Source: an uncultured Oligoflexia bacterium (lineage in GTDB: Bacteria; Bdellovibrionota; Bacteriovoracia; Bacteriovoracales; Bacteriovoracaceae). Taken from it: a stretch of DNA of 64,000 nt. The stretch lies in contig CAJXPQ010000003.1 of assembly GCA_913058265.1 (NCBI GenBank), positions 62,001 to 126,000 of the forward strand, given 5' to 3'. Below the pieces are notes generated by a model. The model was not told the origin of the DNA, made no database searches, and was given only the letters and a program-made list of their open reading frames with translations. How positions within the stretch are numbered: the first letter of the stretch is position 1; every line of letters starts with the position of its first letter. This document shows, piece after piece, positions 11,077 to 19,604 of this stretch. Position numbers and translations under genes: made by a program.

Positions 11077-11805
11077 ATGAAATTAGAAAATAAAGAAGGT
11101 AGTAGGGTTCCAGAGGTTGTGTTTAAGGCACGTAGAGATGGAGGATGGTCAGATATTTCAACCGCTGATATTTTTGCAGGCAAGAAAGTGGTGATTTTTT
11201 CACTTCCTGGTGCGTTTACTCCCACATGTTCTTCAACTCACTTGCCTCGTTATAATGACCTTGCTGCGACTTTTAAAGAGCAAGGAGTGGATAGTATTGT
11301 TTGTTTATCGGTGAATGATGCATTTGTCATGGAAGCATGGGGTGGAGATCAAGAGGCGGAGAATATAACGTTACTTCCAGATGGTAATGGTGATTTTACT
11401 GAAGAAATGGGAATGCTAGTTGATAAGTCAGATATTGGCTTTGGAAAAAGATCTTGGCGTTACTCTATGTTGGTTAACGACGGAGTCATTGAAAAGCAGT
11501 TTATTGAGCCTGATAAGGCGGGTGATCCCTTTGAGGTGAGTGATGCTGATACTATGCTTAATTATCTTAGCCCAGGTGCTAAGGCTAGTGATGGCGCTAC
11601 AGTGTTTTCTAAGGTTGGATGTCCACATTGTAAGGTGGCCAAGGAGTTACTTACTAGTAAAGGTATTAAGTATACTGAGGTTCCAGGTCTGAAAACTCAA
11701 GCACTGAAGGCCATGGGCGGTGCTGGTACATTTCCGCTTATTTTTATCGATGGTAATCTAATTGGTGGCAATGATGATTTGAAAAAGGTGATTAGTTATT
11801 ACTAA
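11077..11805 (+). CDS. Peroxiredoxin-5/glutaredoxin hybrid (glutathione-dependent peroxidase)
   Basis: Two domains are fused. Residues 1-165 form a Prx5-type peroxiredoxin with the peroxidatic Cys51 in PGAFTPTC. Residues 170-242 form a glutaredoxin with Cys182-Pro-His-Cys185 and a TFPLIFIDG cis-proline motif. The hybrid enzyme, known from Haemophilus and Vibrio-like bacteria, lets glutathione reduce the peroxidase within one chain. There is no signal peptide, so it is cytosolic. An SD (AGGAGAGG) precedes the ATG. It fits the glutathione theme of the neighbourhood. Confidence 0.95.
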   Translation: MKLENKEGSRVPEVVFKARRDGGWSDISTADIFAGKKVVIFSLPGAFTPTCSSTHLPRYNDLAATFKEQGVDSIVCLSVNDAFVMEAWGGDQEAENITLLPDGNGDFTEEMGMLVDKSDIGFGKRSWRYSMLVNDGVIEKQFIEPDKAGDPFEVSDADTMLNYLSPGAKASDGATVFSKVGCPHCKVAKELLTSKGIKYTEVPGLKTQALKAMGGAGTFPLIFIDGNLIGGNDDLKKVISYY

Positions 11806-11942: not shown

Positions 11943-12272
11943 ATGGCAGAAGCTAAAGGTTTAAAGAAACCAGTAAAATTACAAACTGAGCTTGCAGGTA
12001 TGCTTGGAGAATCTGAATTACCAAGAACTGAAATTACAAAAAGACTTTGGACATATATCAAAGAAAAAGGTCTTCAGACTAAAACAGAAAACGGAAAGGC
12101 TGAGAACGCTGGAAAGTATATCGTTGCAGACGCTACACTTCTACCAATCTTCAAGAAAACAAAATCAACTAGTAAATCAGGAAAGTTAACTGATCTAACT
12201 GGAATGAAAGAAGGTGAAACTATCAACATGATGCAAATGGCAGCTGTTGTTGGTGCAAATATCGAAGCATAA
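11943..12272 (+). CDS. SWIB/MDM2 domain protein
   Basis: A 109-residue basic protein in which residues 10-85 match the SWIB fold (ELPRTEITKRLWTYIKEKGLQ, then LLPIFKKTKS). In bacteria the domain occurs mainly in chlamydiae and some marine proteobacteria, alone or fused to topoisomerase I, and is thought to bind DNA or chromatin-like proteins. The N- and C-terminal parts are short extensions. It has its own SD (AAAGGAATAC) and a hairpin terminator after it, so it is probably monocistronic. Confidence 0.88.
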   Translation: MAEAKGLKKPVKLQTELAGMLGESELPRTEITKRLWTYIKEKGLQTKTENGKAENAGKYIVADATLLPIFKKTKSTSKSGKLTDLTGMKEGETINMMQMAAVVGANIEA

Positions 12273-13315: not shown

Positions 13316-14479
13316 TTACTGCTGCATATAGCGTAATAGCTTTGCTCTCTCTTCTTTAGTCATTTGAGTTTTATTTGCAAGAGGCATGGCCTTGCTAGAA
13401 ACTTGCTTAATGATCTTATCTTTATGACTTAATAATAGTTCCTCAGTCTCTAAGATGACTCCCTTCTGTGCCTCGTTAAAGACATCATCAGTATTATTCG
13501 CTGCATGACATGATAAACATCTGTTTGCCACGATAGAACTAATATCATTGTACGAAAGCTCTTCAAGATTTGTTTCTTTAATCTGGTCTTTCTTTGATGT
13601 GATAAACACTAACGCAAGTATGCCGACTGCAGCTGGAAGAACCAGAAGTTTCTCTTTAGGGTTCTTTGTGATCATTGCTTGTCTTGTCATGGCACCAGAA
13701 ACCATGATGAGCATAAGCATCAGCCAGCTTAATTCATGGTTGTAAATACTAGGGTAGTGATTACTAAGCATGATAAATAGAACTGGAAAAATGAAGTATG
13801 TATTATGAACAGATCGTGCCTTTGATTTTAAACCAAGGGAGTAGTCTGGAACTTTTCCATTTTCAGCGTCATTAAGCATCTTTGCTTGGTTGGGAAGAAT
13901 CCTGATCCAAACATTAAGCAGCATACATGTTCCGTAAATGACTCCAACTATTATAAAGGCGCCGCGGCCACTGAATAAAAAAGTAGCACCATAGATAAGA
14001 AAGCAACTCAAAACCAAAGCAAGAATATTGCTAATGGTTTTGTTTTTCATAAGTCTTGGATGGTAGATGAAATCATAGATAAACCAACTCATAGTAATAA
14101 GAGCTAAACTTAGGCCTATGGCCTGAAATTGAGAGATATCCAGAACTTGTTTATTTATCAGAAGACTTGCGTCATTTAAAAAGTACAAATAGCCAAATAA
14201 AAGAAAGCCGGTAATAAAAGTAAGAGTCGCTTCCCACTTAAACCAGTGAAGATTTTTTGGTATTTCGCCTGGATAAATTTTTCTTTTATCTACTTGATAA
14301 TAAAATCCACCGTGAACCATAAAGGCTTCACCGTCAACATTATGTCTTGGCTCTTCAGGTGGCTCGAATGCACTATCTAGCCAGATAAAGTAGAATGAGC
14401 TTCCAATCCATGAGATACCCGCTACAAGGTGTGAGAAACGTAAAATATATTCAACCCATAGATCCAAACTAGATAACAT
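13316..14479 (-). CDS. puuD: Urate hydroxylase PuuD with C-terminal cytochrome c domain
   Basis: A membrane protein of about 387 residues. The N-terminal DUF989 region has multiple helices and conserved segments (RFSHLVAGISWIGSSFYF, HGGFYYQVDKRK, LHWFKWEA). A C-terminal heme c motif (CLSCH) and a MPLANKTQMT Met ligand follow near the end. PuuD oxidises urate to 5-hydroxyisourate at the inner membrane and passes electrons through the cytochrome domain. The start is the ATG at 14479, preceded by TTGGAGG. It is divergent from UraH and the fused enzyme, so it defines a urate-breakdown locus with a shared 160-base control region. Confidence 0.88.
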   Translation of the reverse strand: MLSSLDLWVEYILRFSHLVAGISWIGSSFYFIWLDSAFEPPEEPRHNVDGEAFMVHGGFYYQVDKRKIYPGEIPKNLHWFKWEATLTFITGFLLFGYLYFLNDASLLINKQVLDISQFQAIGLSLALITMSWFIYDFIYHPRLMKNKTISNILALVLSCFLIYGATFLFSGRGAFIIVGVIYGTCMLLNVWIRILPNQAKMLNDAENGKVPDYSLGLKSKARSVHNTYFIFPVLFIMLSNHYPSIYNHELSWLMLMLIMVSGAMTRQAMITKNPKEKLLVLPAAVGILALVFITSKKDQIKETNLEELSYNDISSIVANRCLSCHAANNTDDVFNEAQKGVILETEELLLSHKDKIIKQVSSKAMPLANKTQMTKEERAKLLRYMQQ

Positions 14480-14637
14480 TGGGAAAACCTCCAAGAAATT
14501 TATTAATTAAATATTATCCTATGTTTATTTGTAAGGAATGTGAAGCGAGTTATTGACGCAACGCCATTCAATTGTGTCTAGATAATGCTTATGGATTATG
14601 ATCTAATTCTCTATTAAATTTTAAAAGGATAAAAGAC

Positions 14638-14961
14638 ATGATTAGTACTCATATTTTAGACACAAGTGTAGGCAACCCCGCTGAGAATGTAAGAGTTTTA
14701 CTGGAGAAATTTCAGAACGAATCCTGGAGTACGATCAGCGAAGGCGCAACCAATGCGGATGGAAGATTTGTGTTTGATAACGAGTCAGCTGCCGGGCAAT
14801 ATAGAATAACTTTTTTCACAACAGAATATTATCAAAAGAAAGATCTAGAGTGTTTCTTCTTAGATACGCCAGTGGCATTTAATATTACAGATACACAAAG
14901 AAAATACCATGTGCCACTTCTATTAAATCCGTTTGGTTATTCAACTTATAGAGGAAGCTAA
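14638..14961 (+). CDS. uraH: 5-hydroxyisourate hydrolase (transthyretin-like)
   Basis: At 107 residues this is a standard HIUase. It has the N-terminal ISTHILDTSVGNPA, an RITFF segment, the central YHVPLLL and the diagnostic C-terminal YRGS. It hydrolyses 5-hydroxyisourate to OHCU in the cytosol. No signal peptide is present. An AAAGGA site precedes the ATG. The stop TAA overlaps the ATG of the next gene by one base (TAATG), so UraH and the large fused enzyme are translated from one message and probably feed each other. Confidence 0.96.
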   Translation: MISTHILDTSVGNPAENVRVLLEKFQNESWSTISEGATNADGRFVFDNESAAGQYRITFFTTEYYQKKDLECFFLDTPVAFNITDTQRKYHVPLLLNPFGYSTYRGS

Positions 14962-17900
14962 TGAGCAATCGCGAAATACCTTATTATACAGACTACGTAT
15001 CTGGAGAGTTTCAAAAATACCTAGAAAATGAAGCTAAAGAGTATCCAGGTGTTGCTGGACTGGTACATATTGGCGAAACAGGTGGCCTTGAGAATTCAGA
15101 GTCTTTGAAATTTACCTGTGACCTCTATGACTGCGTTAAGGGTGAACTATTAAAGGTTTTAAATCAAAGAGCTGTTGATAGAAAATTTATAGATGAAAGA
15201 GTCAAGGTTTTCTATGAACTAAACGAAGAATATGAAAATGACTTCGAAAGTAATGAGTATCAAACAATTATTGGTCAGGAAGATTCACAGGGGCGCATTG
15301 TCATAGGCCCGAAGCTAGAAAATTATAGCGGAAAATCTGATTGTGCTAAGATTGCTCCCATCCCAGACTATTTACAGGGATTCCATGTCACTTTATTTGG
15401 TCCGCCAGATGATGCTAAATTATCTGTTAATGCTATGAATGCTTATCACCGAAAACTGAAAGATGAGCCCGCAATCATATCTGAAATATTAAAGACGAAT
15501 AAAGAAACTCCAAAATGGGGGGCAGATGATGAAGATTCAAAAACTCCACTGAGATCCGACCTTATAAGTGCCAGTACAAATTTAACAGATTGTTTAAATG
15601 GAGAGATCTCTTTTTATGATGAAAAAAGAGATAAGAATTATAAGTTAGAAAGTGAAATGCTATCTTACCCTATTAAGAGATTCCCAGGGCTTGCTCTTCC
15701 CACGACGTTTTTATTTTATTATAGAAATCCATTACCGTTACATCTATATGACTTTGCACTTCATCTCTTTGAGCATTGGAGTAATCCAAGAGCGTTAACG
15801 TTCTATGTTCCAAAACTTGAAAATGAAGAAGAAGCTGCCTATATAAAAATTATGATTAAGTCGGCCGAGAAGATGATTCAAAAAATTCACCCCGAATATA
15901 AAATTGGCACCGTTAGAGTCATCATTGTTTTAGAAAATCCAAGGGCCGTTTTTAGAGTTAATGAGATGATTGATGCTTTATACCCATACTTTGTTGGGGC
16001 ATCACTGGGTTGGCATGATTACCTTGGAAGTACTGCAAGGTTAATGAAGAACGATGCAAATTATAGAATTCCAGTTAAAGCAGATCCAGATATCGTTATT
16101 AAATATATTAAAGCTTCACATGACCTTCTAGCTAATGTTGTAGGAGAGCGCGGTGGTATTAAGATTGGTGGGATGTACGGGATACTACCTATCACAAATG
16201 AACTCTTTTCAGATTCCTTTCAGATCACTATGCGAGGTTTCTTTCGTGATGTTATCACCCAAATGAAGAGAGATTTATCTGGATATTGGGTTGCCCACCC
16301 TGACTTTGTTCGAATCGGGATTGCTATTGTCGAAGCTTGGCGAATTCATGCTAATGGCGACTCAAGTAAACTTCTAGGAATAACGAATGCATTATTAAAT
16401 GAAAAATATGCCAAAGAAGTATGGGACTTTGTTTTAGCAGATGATATTGAGGGGCTTGATTATACCGATCCTTTATATGCAAGATCTTTAATTGTTGCTG
16501 ATATTAAAGAGTCGAGTTTTATCGCTAATAATCACCCTGATGAAATAAGATATAATGTTTTTCAAATGCTACAGTACTTAACAGACTGGCTAACTGGTAA
16601 TGGTTGTGTCGCCTTGCCGACGCAAATTAATGGTATCTCCGCAAGAGTCATGGATGATCTCGCAACAGCTGAAAGATCTAGGTGGGAAGTATGGCATGAA
16701 ATTCACCATGGTAGATTTAGAGTTGAAGATCTTATTAAAATTGCCCATGAAGAGATGAACTTTATTCGTCGCGATCTCTCAAATGATAAAAAGATCGTAG
16801 AAGTTAAATATACTGAAGAGAATTCAAAGTGGTATGAGGTTGCCTTTAAGCTTATGCTAAAGCTTATGACCGACAAAGAACCGGTGGAATTTGCGACAGA
16901 GCTATTACTTCCTTTTACAATCGAGTCACTACGTGAGAATCCTGAGCCTTGGGAGAAGATTACTGAAGTAGACACTGAAAAGTTTAAGATTGATTCTTAT
17001 GTTGAGAAATATAATTTTTACTTTGAAAACTGTGGTTCTGAAAAATTTGCATCTGAAAATGTGAGAAATTTATTTGTTGATGAAAGCTGTATGAGAAAAT
17101 CAATTATGGAGTTCTCGAAGGATGATATCGTTCAAGCTGCAGGTTTTCATGGAGATATCGGACAGTCAGCAAAAACACTGGACTCTGTCGCTAAATTAGA
17201 GCAACAAAGCGTAAGTAATGACTCTGCCGAACTTCAACATAAGCTATTAAGCCTAGGTATTGAATATTCTAATAAGTTTAAGATGAAATTTCTTGTCAGT
17301 GCTAAAGGCAAAATAGGATCAGAGCTACTCAATATTTTAGAATCTAGAATAAATAACCTTGAGACAGAAGAGATTGAAAATGCAAAGAAGGCGCTCTTTG
17401 AAATTACAATTAAAAGAATGGGGACAGATAAAGTATCAGATCCTCAAGAAAAATTAAAAAATATTTTTAAACAATCAAATATTCAAGGAACACAAATTAG
17501 TATTTCTTCAGCTAAGGGGAGCTATCAAAACTTGAGTTTTGGTTCTAAGGGCAATAACTCTACTGTTGATTATGATACCCAATTTCAAATTGCTTCCCTT
17601 TCAAAAACATTTGCTACTGCTTTTGCTTTGGAGTTCTTTGTAGATCAAGGAATTTCGGAGTCTGATAAAGTAAATGATATCTTGCGGAAACATAAGAGTT
17701 CTTTTCTCTTAACTTCATCAGTAGATGAGAGTTGGGGGGATCTTGTACAGATTAAGCATTTAATGAGTCATTGTGCCCTTAATATGCATTATGTAGAAGG
17801 CGTTATGAGCACAGACGCTATTCCTGATATTTCAGATCTTGTTATTGATGTTATCAATAAACCAGGTACTAAGTTTAAGTATTCAGGCGCCGGTTTTATC

Positions 17901-19604
17901 GTTTTACAATATCTTATCGAATTGATTGGTCAGTCAGATCTCAACTCATTATCTAAAAACTTCTTTAAGCATTTGGGTCTTTCACATATGGACTTCTCTC
18001 CAGAAATGAATAAGTCGAACTTTAGTGTAGGGTTTAGTGATACTAAGGAAGGAATCGAAGGTGGATACAAAAAATTTCCAGGTTTTGCTGCTGGAATGTG
18101 GGGAACAGCTGCAGATGTTTTAAAATTCCTTGAGCATATTGCCTCCGCTTTTGATGATGTCGAGGGCAGTGGGGGAATCTCTCATGATACAGCCGTCCAC
18201 ATGACTTACGGCACGGATAAAGGGTGCAAACCTTTTATGAATACTCTTATGGGAATGGGAGTCTTCACAATTGAAGCCGGAGAGAATGAGTTCTTACTTC
18301 ATCAAGGTGCTAATGATGGATTTAGAGCAATATACCTTTATTGTTATAAGGGGCCAGATAAATATAAGGGCTTCTGTATAACATCCACAGGTGAGCTTAA
18401 TGGAGTCTTATACATTTCTCAAGCCTCTCAGCTATTATTAAAAGAGTTAGGTATTCAAGGAATTGATTATAATAAATTTCAAACAAATTTTGAATCTAAG
18501 AACCTATCAAGTGAGCAGATAGTTAATATTGGTTATAAGGACCTTTTTCTAAATGCATTTAAAGCAACTCTACCTGAACAGATTAAAGGAGAGAAGCTAA
18601 AGTGTACTTATGCTGATTTTAACTTACTTGATAATGCGGAGATAGTTTCTGTCTCCAATCAAAGATTTGCTAGGGCCGTGAATCTCTTGAGTCCTTATGA
18701 TCCAGTCTTTGACCCCGCTGAATTTGGTCGTCAGGGAAAGGTGATGGATAGCTGGGAGTCAGCAAGACATAATCCTGAAGACTTTGATTATATAAATTTA
18801 AAGCTTTCTAAGAAGTCGGATATTAACTTTGTTTTTCTTTCAACTAAGTATCATGACGGAAATCAAGTGGAGTGGGTTGAAATTCTCTCTGATGAAAATA
18901 CTCTTCTAAGAAAGACTAGGCTTGAAGGGCATAGTGCTCTTAATATTAAATTAAATGAAACGATTCCTGGTTGTGAGAACATTACAATCAGAGTTTTCCC
19001 AGACGGTGGTCTTACGAGAGTGGCGCTCTTTGATGAATTGCCCCCAGATCATCCGGCAGAATTCCTTCCGGAAGATGAAGCCTTTTGTATCCGATTTAAA
19101 GAAAGTATTCCTCAATCATTAAAACCACTTGGTATTAATCCTCATTACTTTAAAAAGAACGATTACTCTAAGAAACTAAATTACGCTTCACTTGCCCTAG
19201 GCGCAAAGGTAGTAAGTGCTACTGATGAACATTATGCTCCAGCGGAGAATGTTCTTTCACCTTTTAAACCTCTGAATATGTTTGACGGGCTTGAATCAAG
19301 AAGGTCTAGAGAGAAAAATCACTTTGAGGAAGTTGTCATTGAACTGGCAACTTCTATTATACCTAATGAGATACATTTTGATTTTACTTACTTTGTGAAT
19401 AATAATCCAAAAGAGCTTTCAGTCTTTTGTGAGAGTGAGTCCGATGGTAAGTGGATTCCTCTATTTGAAAAATATTCATGTAAAGAATATGCCGGTAACT
19501 ACTTAGTCTTAAAATCTGATCAAGGAATTAAATCAAACAAAATTAAAGTGCAACTCTATCCAGATGGTGGAGTTAATAGAGTTAAGGTTTATGGTAAAGA
19601 GTAA
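14961..19604 (+). CDS. Four-domain urate-to-malate fusion: malate synthase, OHCU decarboxylase, serine hydrolase, allantoicase
   Basis: This 1547-residue cytosolic protein appears to join four enzymes. Residues 1-660 resemble malate synthase A (IAPIPDYLQG, LTFYVPKLE, YWVAHPDFV, LTGNGCVAL, MDDLATAERSRWEVW; Asp566 fits the catalytic base). Residues 670-822 match OHCU decarboxylase (His730 in FHGDIG, Glu747-Gln748, KRM end), though divergent. Residues 823-1165 form a beta-lactamase/S12-type hydrolase with Ser879-x-x-Lys882, Tyr974 and HQG at 1114. Residues 1205-1547 are the two allantoicase repeats, each ending FPDGG or YPDGG. With PuuD and UraH this covers urate oxidation, ring opening, allantoate cleavage and glyoxylate capture. 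No allantoinase or ureidoglycolate lyase is visible, and the hydrolase could fill one of these gaps (inference). The frame is intact. Confidence 0.88.
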   Translation: MSNREIPYYTDYVSGEFQKYLENEAKEYPGVAGLVHIGETGGLENSESLKFTCDLYDCVKGELLKVLNQRAVDRKFIDERVKVFYELNEEYENDFESNEYQTIIGQEDSQGRIVIGPKLENYSGKSDCAKIAPIPDYLQGFHVTLFGPPDDAKLSVNAMNAYHRKLKDEPAIISEILKTNKETPKWGADDEDSKTPLRSDLISASTNLTDCLNGEISFYDEKRDKNYKLESEMLSYPIKRFPGLALPTTFLFYYRNPLPLHLYDFALHLFEHWSNPRALTFYVPKLENEEEAAYIKIMIKSAEKMIQKIHPEYKIGTVRVIIVLENPRAVFRVNEMIDALYPYFVGASLGWHDYLGSTARLMKNDANYRIPVKADPDIVIKYIKASHDLLANVVGERGGIKIGGMYGILPITNELFSDSFQITMRGFFRDVITQMKRDLSGYWVAHPDFVRIGIAIVEAWRIHANGDSSKLLGITNALLNEKYAKEVWDFVLADDIEGLDYTDPLYARSLIVADIKESSFIANNHPDEIRYNVFQMLQYLTDWLTGNGCVALPTQINGISARVMDDLATAERSRWEVWHEIHHGRFRVEDLIKIAHEEMNFIRRDLSNDKKIVEVKYTEENSKWYEVAFKLMLKLMTDKEPVEFATELLLPFTIESLRENPEPWEKITEVDTEKFKIDSYVEKYNFYFENCGSEKFASENVRNLFVDESCMRKSIMEFSKDDIVQAAGFHGDIGQSAKTLDSVAKLEQQSVSNDSAELQHKLLSLGIEYSNKFKMKFLVSAKGKIGSELLNILESRINNLETEEIENAKKALFEITIKRMGTDKVSDPQEKLKNIFKQSNIQGTQISISSAKGSYQNLSFGSKGNNSTVDYDTQFQIASLSKTFATAFALEFFVDQGISESDKVNDILRKHKSSFLLTSSVDESWGDLVQIKHLMSHCALNMHYVEGVMSTDAIPDISDLVIDVINKPGTKFKYSGAGFIVLQYLIELIGQSDLNSLSKNFFKHLGLSHMDFSPEMNKSNFSVGFSDTKEGIEGGYKKFPGFAAGMWGTAADVLKFLEHIASAFDDVEGSGGISHDTAVHMTYGTDKGCKPFMNTLMGMGVFTIEAGENEFLLHQGANDGFRAIYLYCYKGPDKYKGFCITSTGELNGVLYISQASQLLLKELGIQGIDYNKFQTNFESKNLSSEQIVNIGYKDLFLNAFKATLPEQIKGEKLKCTYADFNLLDNAEIVSVSNQRFARAVNLLSPYDPVFDPAEFGRQGKVMDSWESARHNPEDFDYINLKLSKKSDINFVFLSTKYHDGNQVEWVEILSDENTLLRKTRLEGHSALNIKLNETIPGCENITIRVFPDGGLTRVALFDELPPDHPAEFLPEDEAFCIRFKESIPQSLKPLGINPHYFKKNDYSKKLNYASLALGAKVVSATDEHYAPAENVLSPFKPLNMFDGLESRRSREKNHFEEVVIELATSIIPNEIHFDFTYFVNNNPKELSVFCESESDGKWIPLFEKYSCKEYAGNYLVLKSDQGIKSNKIKVQLYPDGGVNRVKVYGKE

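Follow-up and report, generated by a model that had tools for sequence, protein, structure and literature searches.

One gene in the window (the whole stretch of 64,000 nucleotides analysed here) raises the question of why a malate synthase and a beta-lactamase-like serine hydrolase should share a polypeptide with two enzymes of purine degradation, and which step the serine hydrolase would carry out there.

Domains and neighbours of the fusion gene

The gene occupies positions 14961-19604 of the forward strand as one open frame of 1547 codons, the same intact frame that a preliminary description of this DNA had pointed out. HMM searches matched its four segments to PF01274, PF09349, PF00144 and PF03561, all above gathering score, in the order MS_TIM-barrel, MS_C (PF20659), OHCU_decarbox, Beta-lactamase and Allantoicase twice; the domains are referred to here as MS (malate synthase), UraD (OHCU decarboxylase), Hyd (serine hydrolase) and Alc (allantoicase). 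Upstream lies uraH (14638-14961, forward strand), encoding a hydroxyisourate hydrolase (profile score of 127 bits, cutoff 87), whose stop codon shares one base with the start of the fusion in the sequence TAATG (14959-14963). It is preceded by the divergent puuD (13316-14494, reverse strand), encoding a membrane cytochrome c urate oxidase (Urate_ox_N match, 2.8e-93); both the overlap and the divergent orientation had been noted correctly. The PuuD of the window is a short form, with 392 residues compared to about 550-570 in most relatives, which keeps Urate_ox_N and the CxxCH haem motif. A scan for promoters and terminators gave signal no better than shuffled sequences. Elsewhere in the window, positions 11943-12272 encode a small protein with a SWIB/MDM2 domain and 11077-11805 a fusion of a peroxiredoxin and a glutaredoxin.

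Based on these assignments, PuuD and UraH would turn urate into OHCU, which would be converted to (S)-allantoin by the UraD domain (16986-17438, residues 676-826). The preliminary description regarded UraD as the weakest of the domain calls, a reservation that is no longer needed: OHCU_decarbox covers residues 710-820 (1.5e-13), and His730, Glu747 and Arg819 fall on the conserved His, Glu and Arg when aligned to solved OHCU decarboxylases (PF09349; 3o7h, 5uou) and are invariant in 64/64 full-length fusions, which makes this call as solid as the others. Unlike the known enzymes, the fusion UraD has a divergent N-terminal part, shows HGxIG for HPxIG and is embedded in a larger chain. The Alc domain (18624-19601, residues 1222-1547) would produce ureidoglycolate and urea from allantoate; its two repeats, as previously proposed, both match PF03561 over the cutoff (1.3e-39), and it has these repeats and the conserved motifs in common with known allantoicases such as the yeast protein (1sg3). 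Fusion-type Alc domains are the more divergent, with Pfam E-values of about 1e-17 to 1e-30 versus 1e-47 to 1e-58 for standalone allantoicases of the same phylum.

To our knowledge, none of the known fusions of purine enzymes includes a malate synthase or a serine hydrolase. In open-licence PMC papers no account was found of a malate synthase-allantoicase fusion or a beta-lactamase-fold allantoinase, nor of purine use in Bdellovibrio or of DUF6986, in agreement with the earlier statement that no described protein of this domain order was known; the novelty of the fusion rests on these searches. The joining of purine-degradation enzymes as such has parallels in the allantoicase/OHCU decarboxylase architecture NF010371 and in an AllB-UraD fusion of the genome G011, from the same family of bacteria.

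Distribution, conservation and possible transfer

In a first homologue search of 39 genomes (the window's own and 38 relatives), full-length fusion homologues with 46-58% identity were found in seven other genomes. When GTDB species genomes were scanned using the Hyd domain as the sole query, 80 loci were obtained, every one of them in a fusion gene according to domain HMMs, and at 71 of these all four domains lie in a single frame, so that the same order recurs across many species. The other nine are at contig ends (L054, L079, L089, L110, L113) or carry one frameshift (L050, L076, L105, L117). As most carriers are metagenome assemblies, an error of assembly or reading frame could conceivably have fused what are separate genes, but the identical order at 71 single-frame loci from many assemblies and at least two phyla, together with G125, a carrier whose assembly is a single contig, rules out a chimeric origin for practical purposes.

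The gene neighbourhood is also recurrent: uraH was found at 65 of the 80 fusion loci, puuD at 50 and xdhAB at about 30. Most Bdellovibrionota loci show the order puuD-uraH-fusion. At nine Planctomycetota-type loci (L073, L080, L081, L091, L093, L096, L097, L109, L116) uraH is on the opposite strand, xdhAB comes after the fusion and no puuD was seen.

The carriers span Bdellovibrionota plus a set from Planctomycetota, and in a FastTree phylogeny of 64 fusions the Planctomycetota rows form one set nested within Bdellovibrionota, which suggests that the entire gene was transferred between phyla. The few carriers titled Pseudomonadota or Bacteroidota fall within these clades as well and could be bins with a wrong label.

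In an alignment of the 64 full-length fusions, four MS residues, the UraD His/Glu/Arg and the SxxK, Tyr974 and HQG of Hyd are invariant, in support of the domain calls of the preliminary description; the Alc motifs show no or almost no variation in those alignment rows that extend to them.

A candidate for the missing allantoinase

UraD yields allantoin whereas Alc takes allantoate, and therefore an allantoinase is needed between them. The preliminary description, which had the chain bring glyoxylate from purines to malate, was incomplete in this respect, since it named no enzyme for the step from allantoin to allantoate and gave the hydrolase no role. To follow the known enzymes for this step, 369 genomes of the phylum were compared, counting AllB above its curated cutoff and defining as fusion-type those genomes whose Alc is divergent, usually within a frame of some 1,550 codons. 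Allantoicase is present in 96 of them, 68 fusion-type, 25 standalone and three belonging to an odd genus (g9). AllB was found in 0/68 fusion-type genomes versus 22/25 with a standalone Alc (Fisher p = 1.9e-18); as species are not independent this p-value overstates the weight, and the count by genus, 0/23 versus 14/16, is the safer number. The three standalone-Alc genomes lacking AllB are 67-83% complete, AllB never occurs without Alc, and in genera g149 and g160 congeneric species differ in AllB and Alc type together. The Hyd profile, in turn, was detected in 50 of the 52 fusion-type genomes tested, in 0/25 standalone genomes and in 3/3 of genus g9; the two genomes without a hit are G121, whose Alc lies at the edge of a contig, and G129, with a completeness of 62%.

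Neither AllB over cutoff nor PuuE was found in the 35 genomes behind the fusion loci, including all the Planctomycetota listed. Other hydantoinase-like candidates may nevertheless exist in some genomes, as several Planctomycetota encode a further amidohydrolase that scores about 270 bits, under the AllB cutoff. A hidden AllB homologue was rejected as the allantoinase of the carriers, the best AllB-family protein in the six fusion genomes checked being dihydroorotase-like, and so was PuuE, not found in the fusion genomes tested. Anti-correlation between unrelated genes that serve a single reaction was also the logic by which PuuD was found (PMC4562309).

The Hyd domain (17439-18560, residues 827-1200) lies between UraD and Alc in the chain, matching the place of an allantoinase in the pathway. 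Beta-lactamase PF00144 covers residues 838-1064 (4.4e-15), and a confident AF2 model (pLDDT 95.5) has class C beta-lactamases as nearest structures, at about 15% identity. The PF00144 match, the fold and the invariant SxxK, Tyr974 and HQG agree with the earlier call of a serine hydrolase with full catalytic motifs, and by fold, SxxK and Tyr the domain belongs to the serine beta-lactamase-like superfamily. It shares fold, SxxK nucleophile and Tyr with class C beta-lactamases and NylB-type enzymes; apart from the low identity, it differs from them in invariant motifs of its own (HxALNMHYV, FPAFAAG, HQGANDG), and it scores 35.9 bits against the NCBIfam class C beta-lactamase model, whose cutoff is 415. 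In the genome scan Hyd was confined to the fusion gene and its relative in genus g9. It is not AllB, as it has a different fold and is not a cyclic amidohydrolase over TIGR03178. Apart from AllB, the characterised allantoinases include PuuE-type proteins; AllB (TIGR03178) and PuuE (TIGR03212) would share with Hyd the predicted reaction, allantoin to allantoate, with unrelated folds. That the characterised allantoinases other than PuuE are metal amidohydrolases (PMC9863593) speaks against Hyd in this role. NylB-type Ser-Tyr-Lys hydrolases are able to cleave amides (PMC10858056).

As an allantoinase, Hyd would open the hydantoin ring through an acyl-enzyme. Ser879 of the motif S879-L-S-K882 (codons at 17595-17606) would attack the carbonyl of the ring amide, with Lys882 and Tyr974 (motif Y974-S-G, 17880-17888) in the roles of general base and acid; allantoate would then be freed by water. 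Both motifs, like HQGANDG at residues 1114-1120 (18300-18320), are encoded on the forward strand, and SxxK, Tyr974 and HQG are conserved in 64/64 fusions.

Standalone Alc genes are found in operons of the type allB-alc-uraD-uraH-DUF6986, and since these gene sets differ from those of the fusion by AllB/Hyd and DUF6986/MS, the allantoinase reading of Hyd is preferred. We estimate at roughly two in three the probability that the fusion carries OHCU through to malate, Hyd acting as a serine-type allantoinase in place of the metal-dependent one. A broader proposition, that Hyd represents a new class of metal-independent allantoinases derived from the fold of penicillin-recognising serine hydrolases, within an OHCU-to-malate chain that passed in one piece between Bdellovibrionota and Planctomycetota, is also probable and is put forward a little more cautiously.

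It could be argued that Hyd stands outside the chemistry of the pathway, as a scaffold or as an esterase or peptidase acting on a different substrate, and that the pathway ends at allantoin or uses another allantoinase, as the PF00144 fold also covers esterases and peptidases and only about 15% of the sequence is identical to solved relatives. This seems rather unlikely given the invariance of SxxK, Tyr and HQG in 64/64 fusions and the strict anti-correlation with AllB; moreover, the conserved downstream Alc would be left without substrate if there were no allantoinase. Similarly improbable is that Hyd supplies the absent ureidoglycolate lyase or hydrolase, with allantoin opened by an amidohydrolase that escaped recognition elsewhere in the genome. 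The ureidoglycolate lyase AllA is indeed missing in fusion-type genomes (0/68), and in one genome of genus g9 (G138) it adjoins a degenerate Hyd-Alc gene. However, AllA is missing from most standalone-Alc genomes too, which also lack Hyd and have AllB, so that the partner exchanged for Hyd is AllB rather than AllA; Hyd is placed before Alc in the chain; and the spontaneous decay of ureidoglycolate to glyoxylate (PMC6320678) makes a lyase less needed than an allantoinase. A role as ureidoglycolate lyase is thus less likely than that of allantoinase.

Genus g9 offers a natural test of the allantoinase assignment. Its protein is shorter and comprises Hyd and Alc only, MS being a separate gene. 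A standalone MS gene is found at the g9 loci L025, L027 and L118; it occurs twice in G011, once away from the purine genes on the stretch read. The g9 Hyd has Phe for Tyr974 and HHA for HQG (HHAANDG), and N941, H943, Q1115 and G1116 are lost; altogether 7-9 of its 43 near-invariant sites are lost versus 3 of 50 in Alc, compared with a leave-one-out loss within the fusions of 0.6% on average and 6.8% in the worst case. The Hyd-Alc copy of G011 is cut short within Hyd by the start of its contig, so that the third motif alone is readable. This genome also encodes the AllB-UraD fusion (L026:7874-9727, 617 residues, followed by uraH). The decay of Hyd beside an intact Alc thus takes place in a genus that has another allantoinase. 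Among the g9 genomes, with a completeness of 68-85%, AllB was detected in G011 alone, and the relaxation of Hyd could be due to AllA, as found in G138, instead of AllB.

Malate synthase and the probable fate of glyoxylate

The MS domain (14961-16976, residues 1-672) would condense glyoxylate with acetyl-CoA to form malate. MS_TIM-barrel covers residues 242-454 (4.8e-19) and MS_C 527-647 (3.2e-12), and R240, E325, D353 and D566 align with R166, E250, D278 and D447 of E. coli malate synthase A (MSA), the catalytic Arg, the Glu and Asp ligands and the Asp base of that enzyme. In the AF2 model (pLDDT 93.0) the nearest solved structure is MSA (3cv2/3cuz, TM 0.84 by target). Pfam, residues and model concur with the malate synthase call of the preliminary description. 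The fold and the four mapped residues are shared with MSA (AceB, TIGR01344), from which the domain differs in an extra N-terminal part, an insert around 454-527, its joining to purine enzymes and a score far under the equivalog cutoff (143 versus 594.5 bits); judged by sequence, it is a malate synthase-like branch and not MSA proper.

Isocitrate lyase (ICL), missing in most fusion genomes checked, was not found in seven of eight (G000, G001, G007, G008, G017, G019, G038); in the eighth, G016, it lies beside a separate malate synthase on contig C32. The glyoxylate shunt was thus rejected as the role of MS for most carriers checked, and because ICL is missing the domain most likely serves purine-derived glyoxylate. 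This absence strengthens the earlier idea that malate synthase is supplied with glyoxylate from purines.

An alternative is that MS belongs to the TIM-barrel relatives of malate synthase and has some other derivative of glyoxylate or ureidoglycolate as substrate, which may also be the case for DUF6986; this alternative concerns the MS domain and does not compete with the readings of Hyd. The score far below the MSA equivalog cutoff would fit it, as would the observation that MS stands in for DUF6986, which is mutually exclusive with AllA, so that an MS-like partner may handle ureidoglycolate; against this, all four MSA residues are matched and invariant and the model is closest to MSA, and such a function is considered improbable. 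Among the 25 standalone genomes DUF6986 occurs in 21 and AllA in three, never together, the AllA carriers being three of the four that lack DUF6986. DUF6986, a malate synthase-like protein encoded together with allB, alc, uraD and uraH in one operon, may act on ureidoglycolate or on the glyoxylate derived from it. For MS as a malate synthase, ureidoglycolate would reach it as glyoxylate, formed spontaneously or by some further activity.

A class V aminotransferase is encoded within allantoin loci (L025:1745-2872, L029:6377-7579, L118:7120-8244), that of L025 having as best NCBIfam match, under cutoff, the aspartate-glyoxylate aminotransferase BhcA; it is a possible second glyoxylate sink.

The fusion would provide, within one polypeptide, a direct link from purine waste to central carbon metabolism, in carriers related to predatory bacteria, which would take up prey nucleotides. 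It provides a natural test case for the channelling of unstable OHCU, ureidoglycolate and glyoxylate, which its domains may pass from one to the next. If Hyd is an allantoinase, it would be a serine-hydrolase solution for a ureide step known from metal-dependent amidohydrolases and PuuE, one that routine annotation would call a beta-lactamase, and it would correct pathway reconstructions that score these genomes as lacking an allantoinase.
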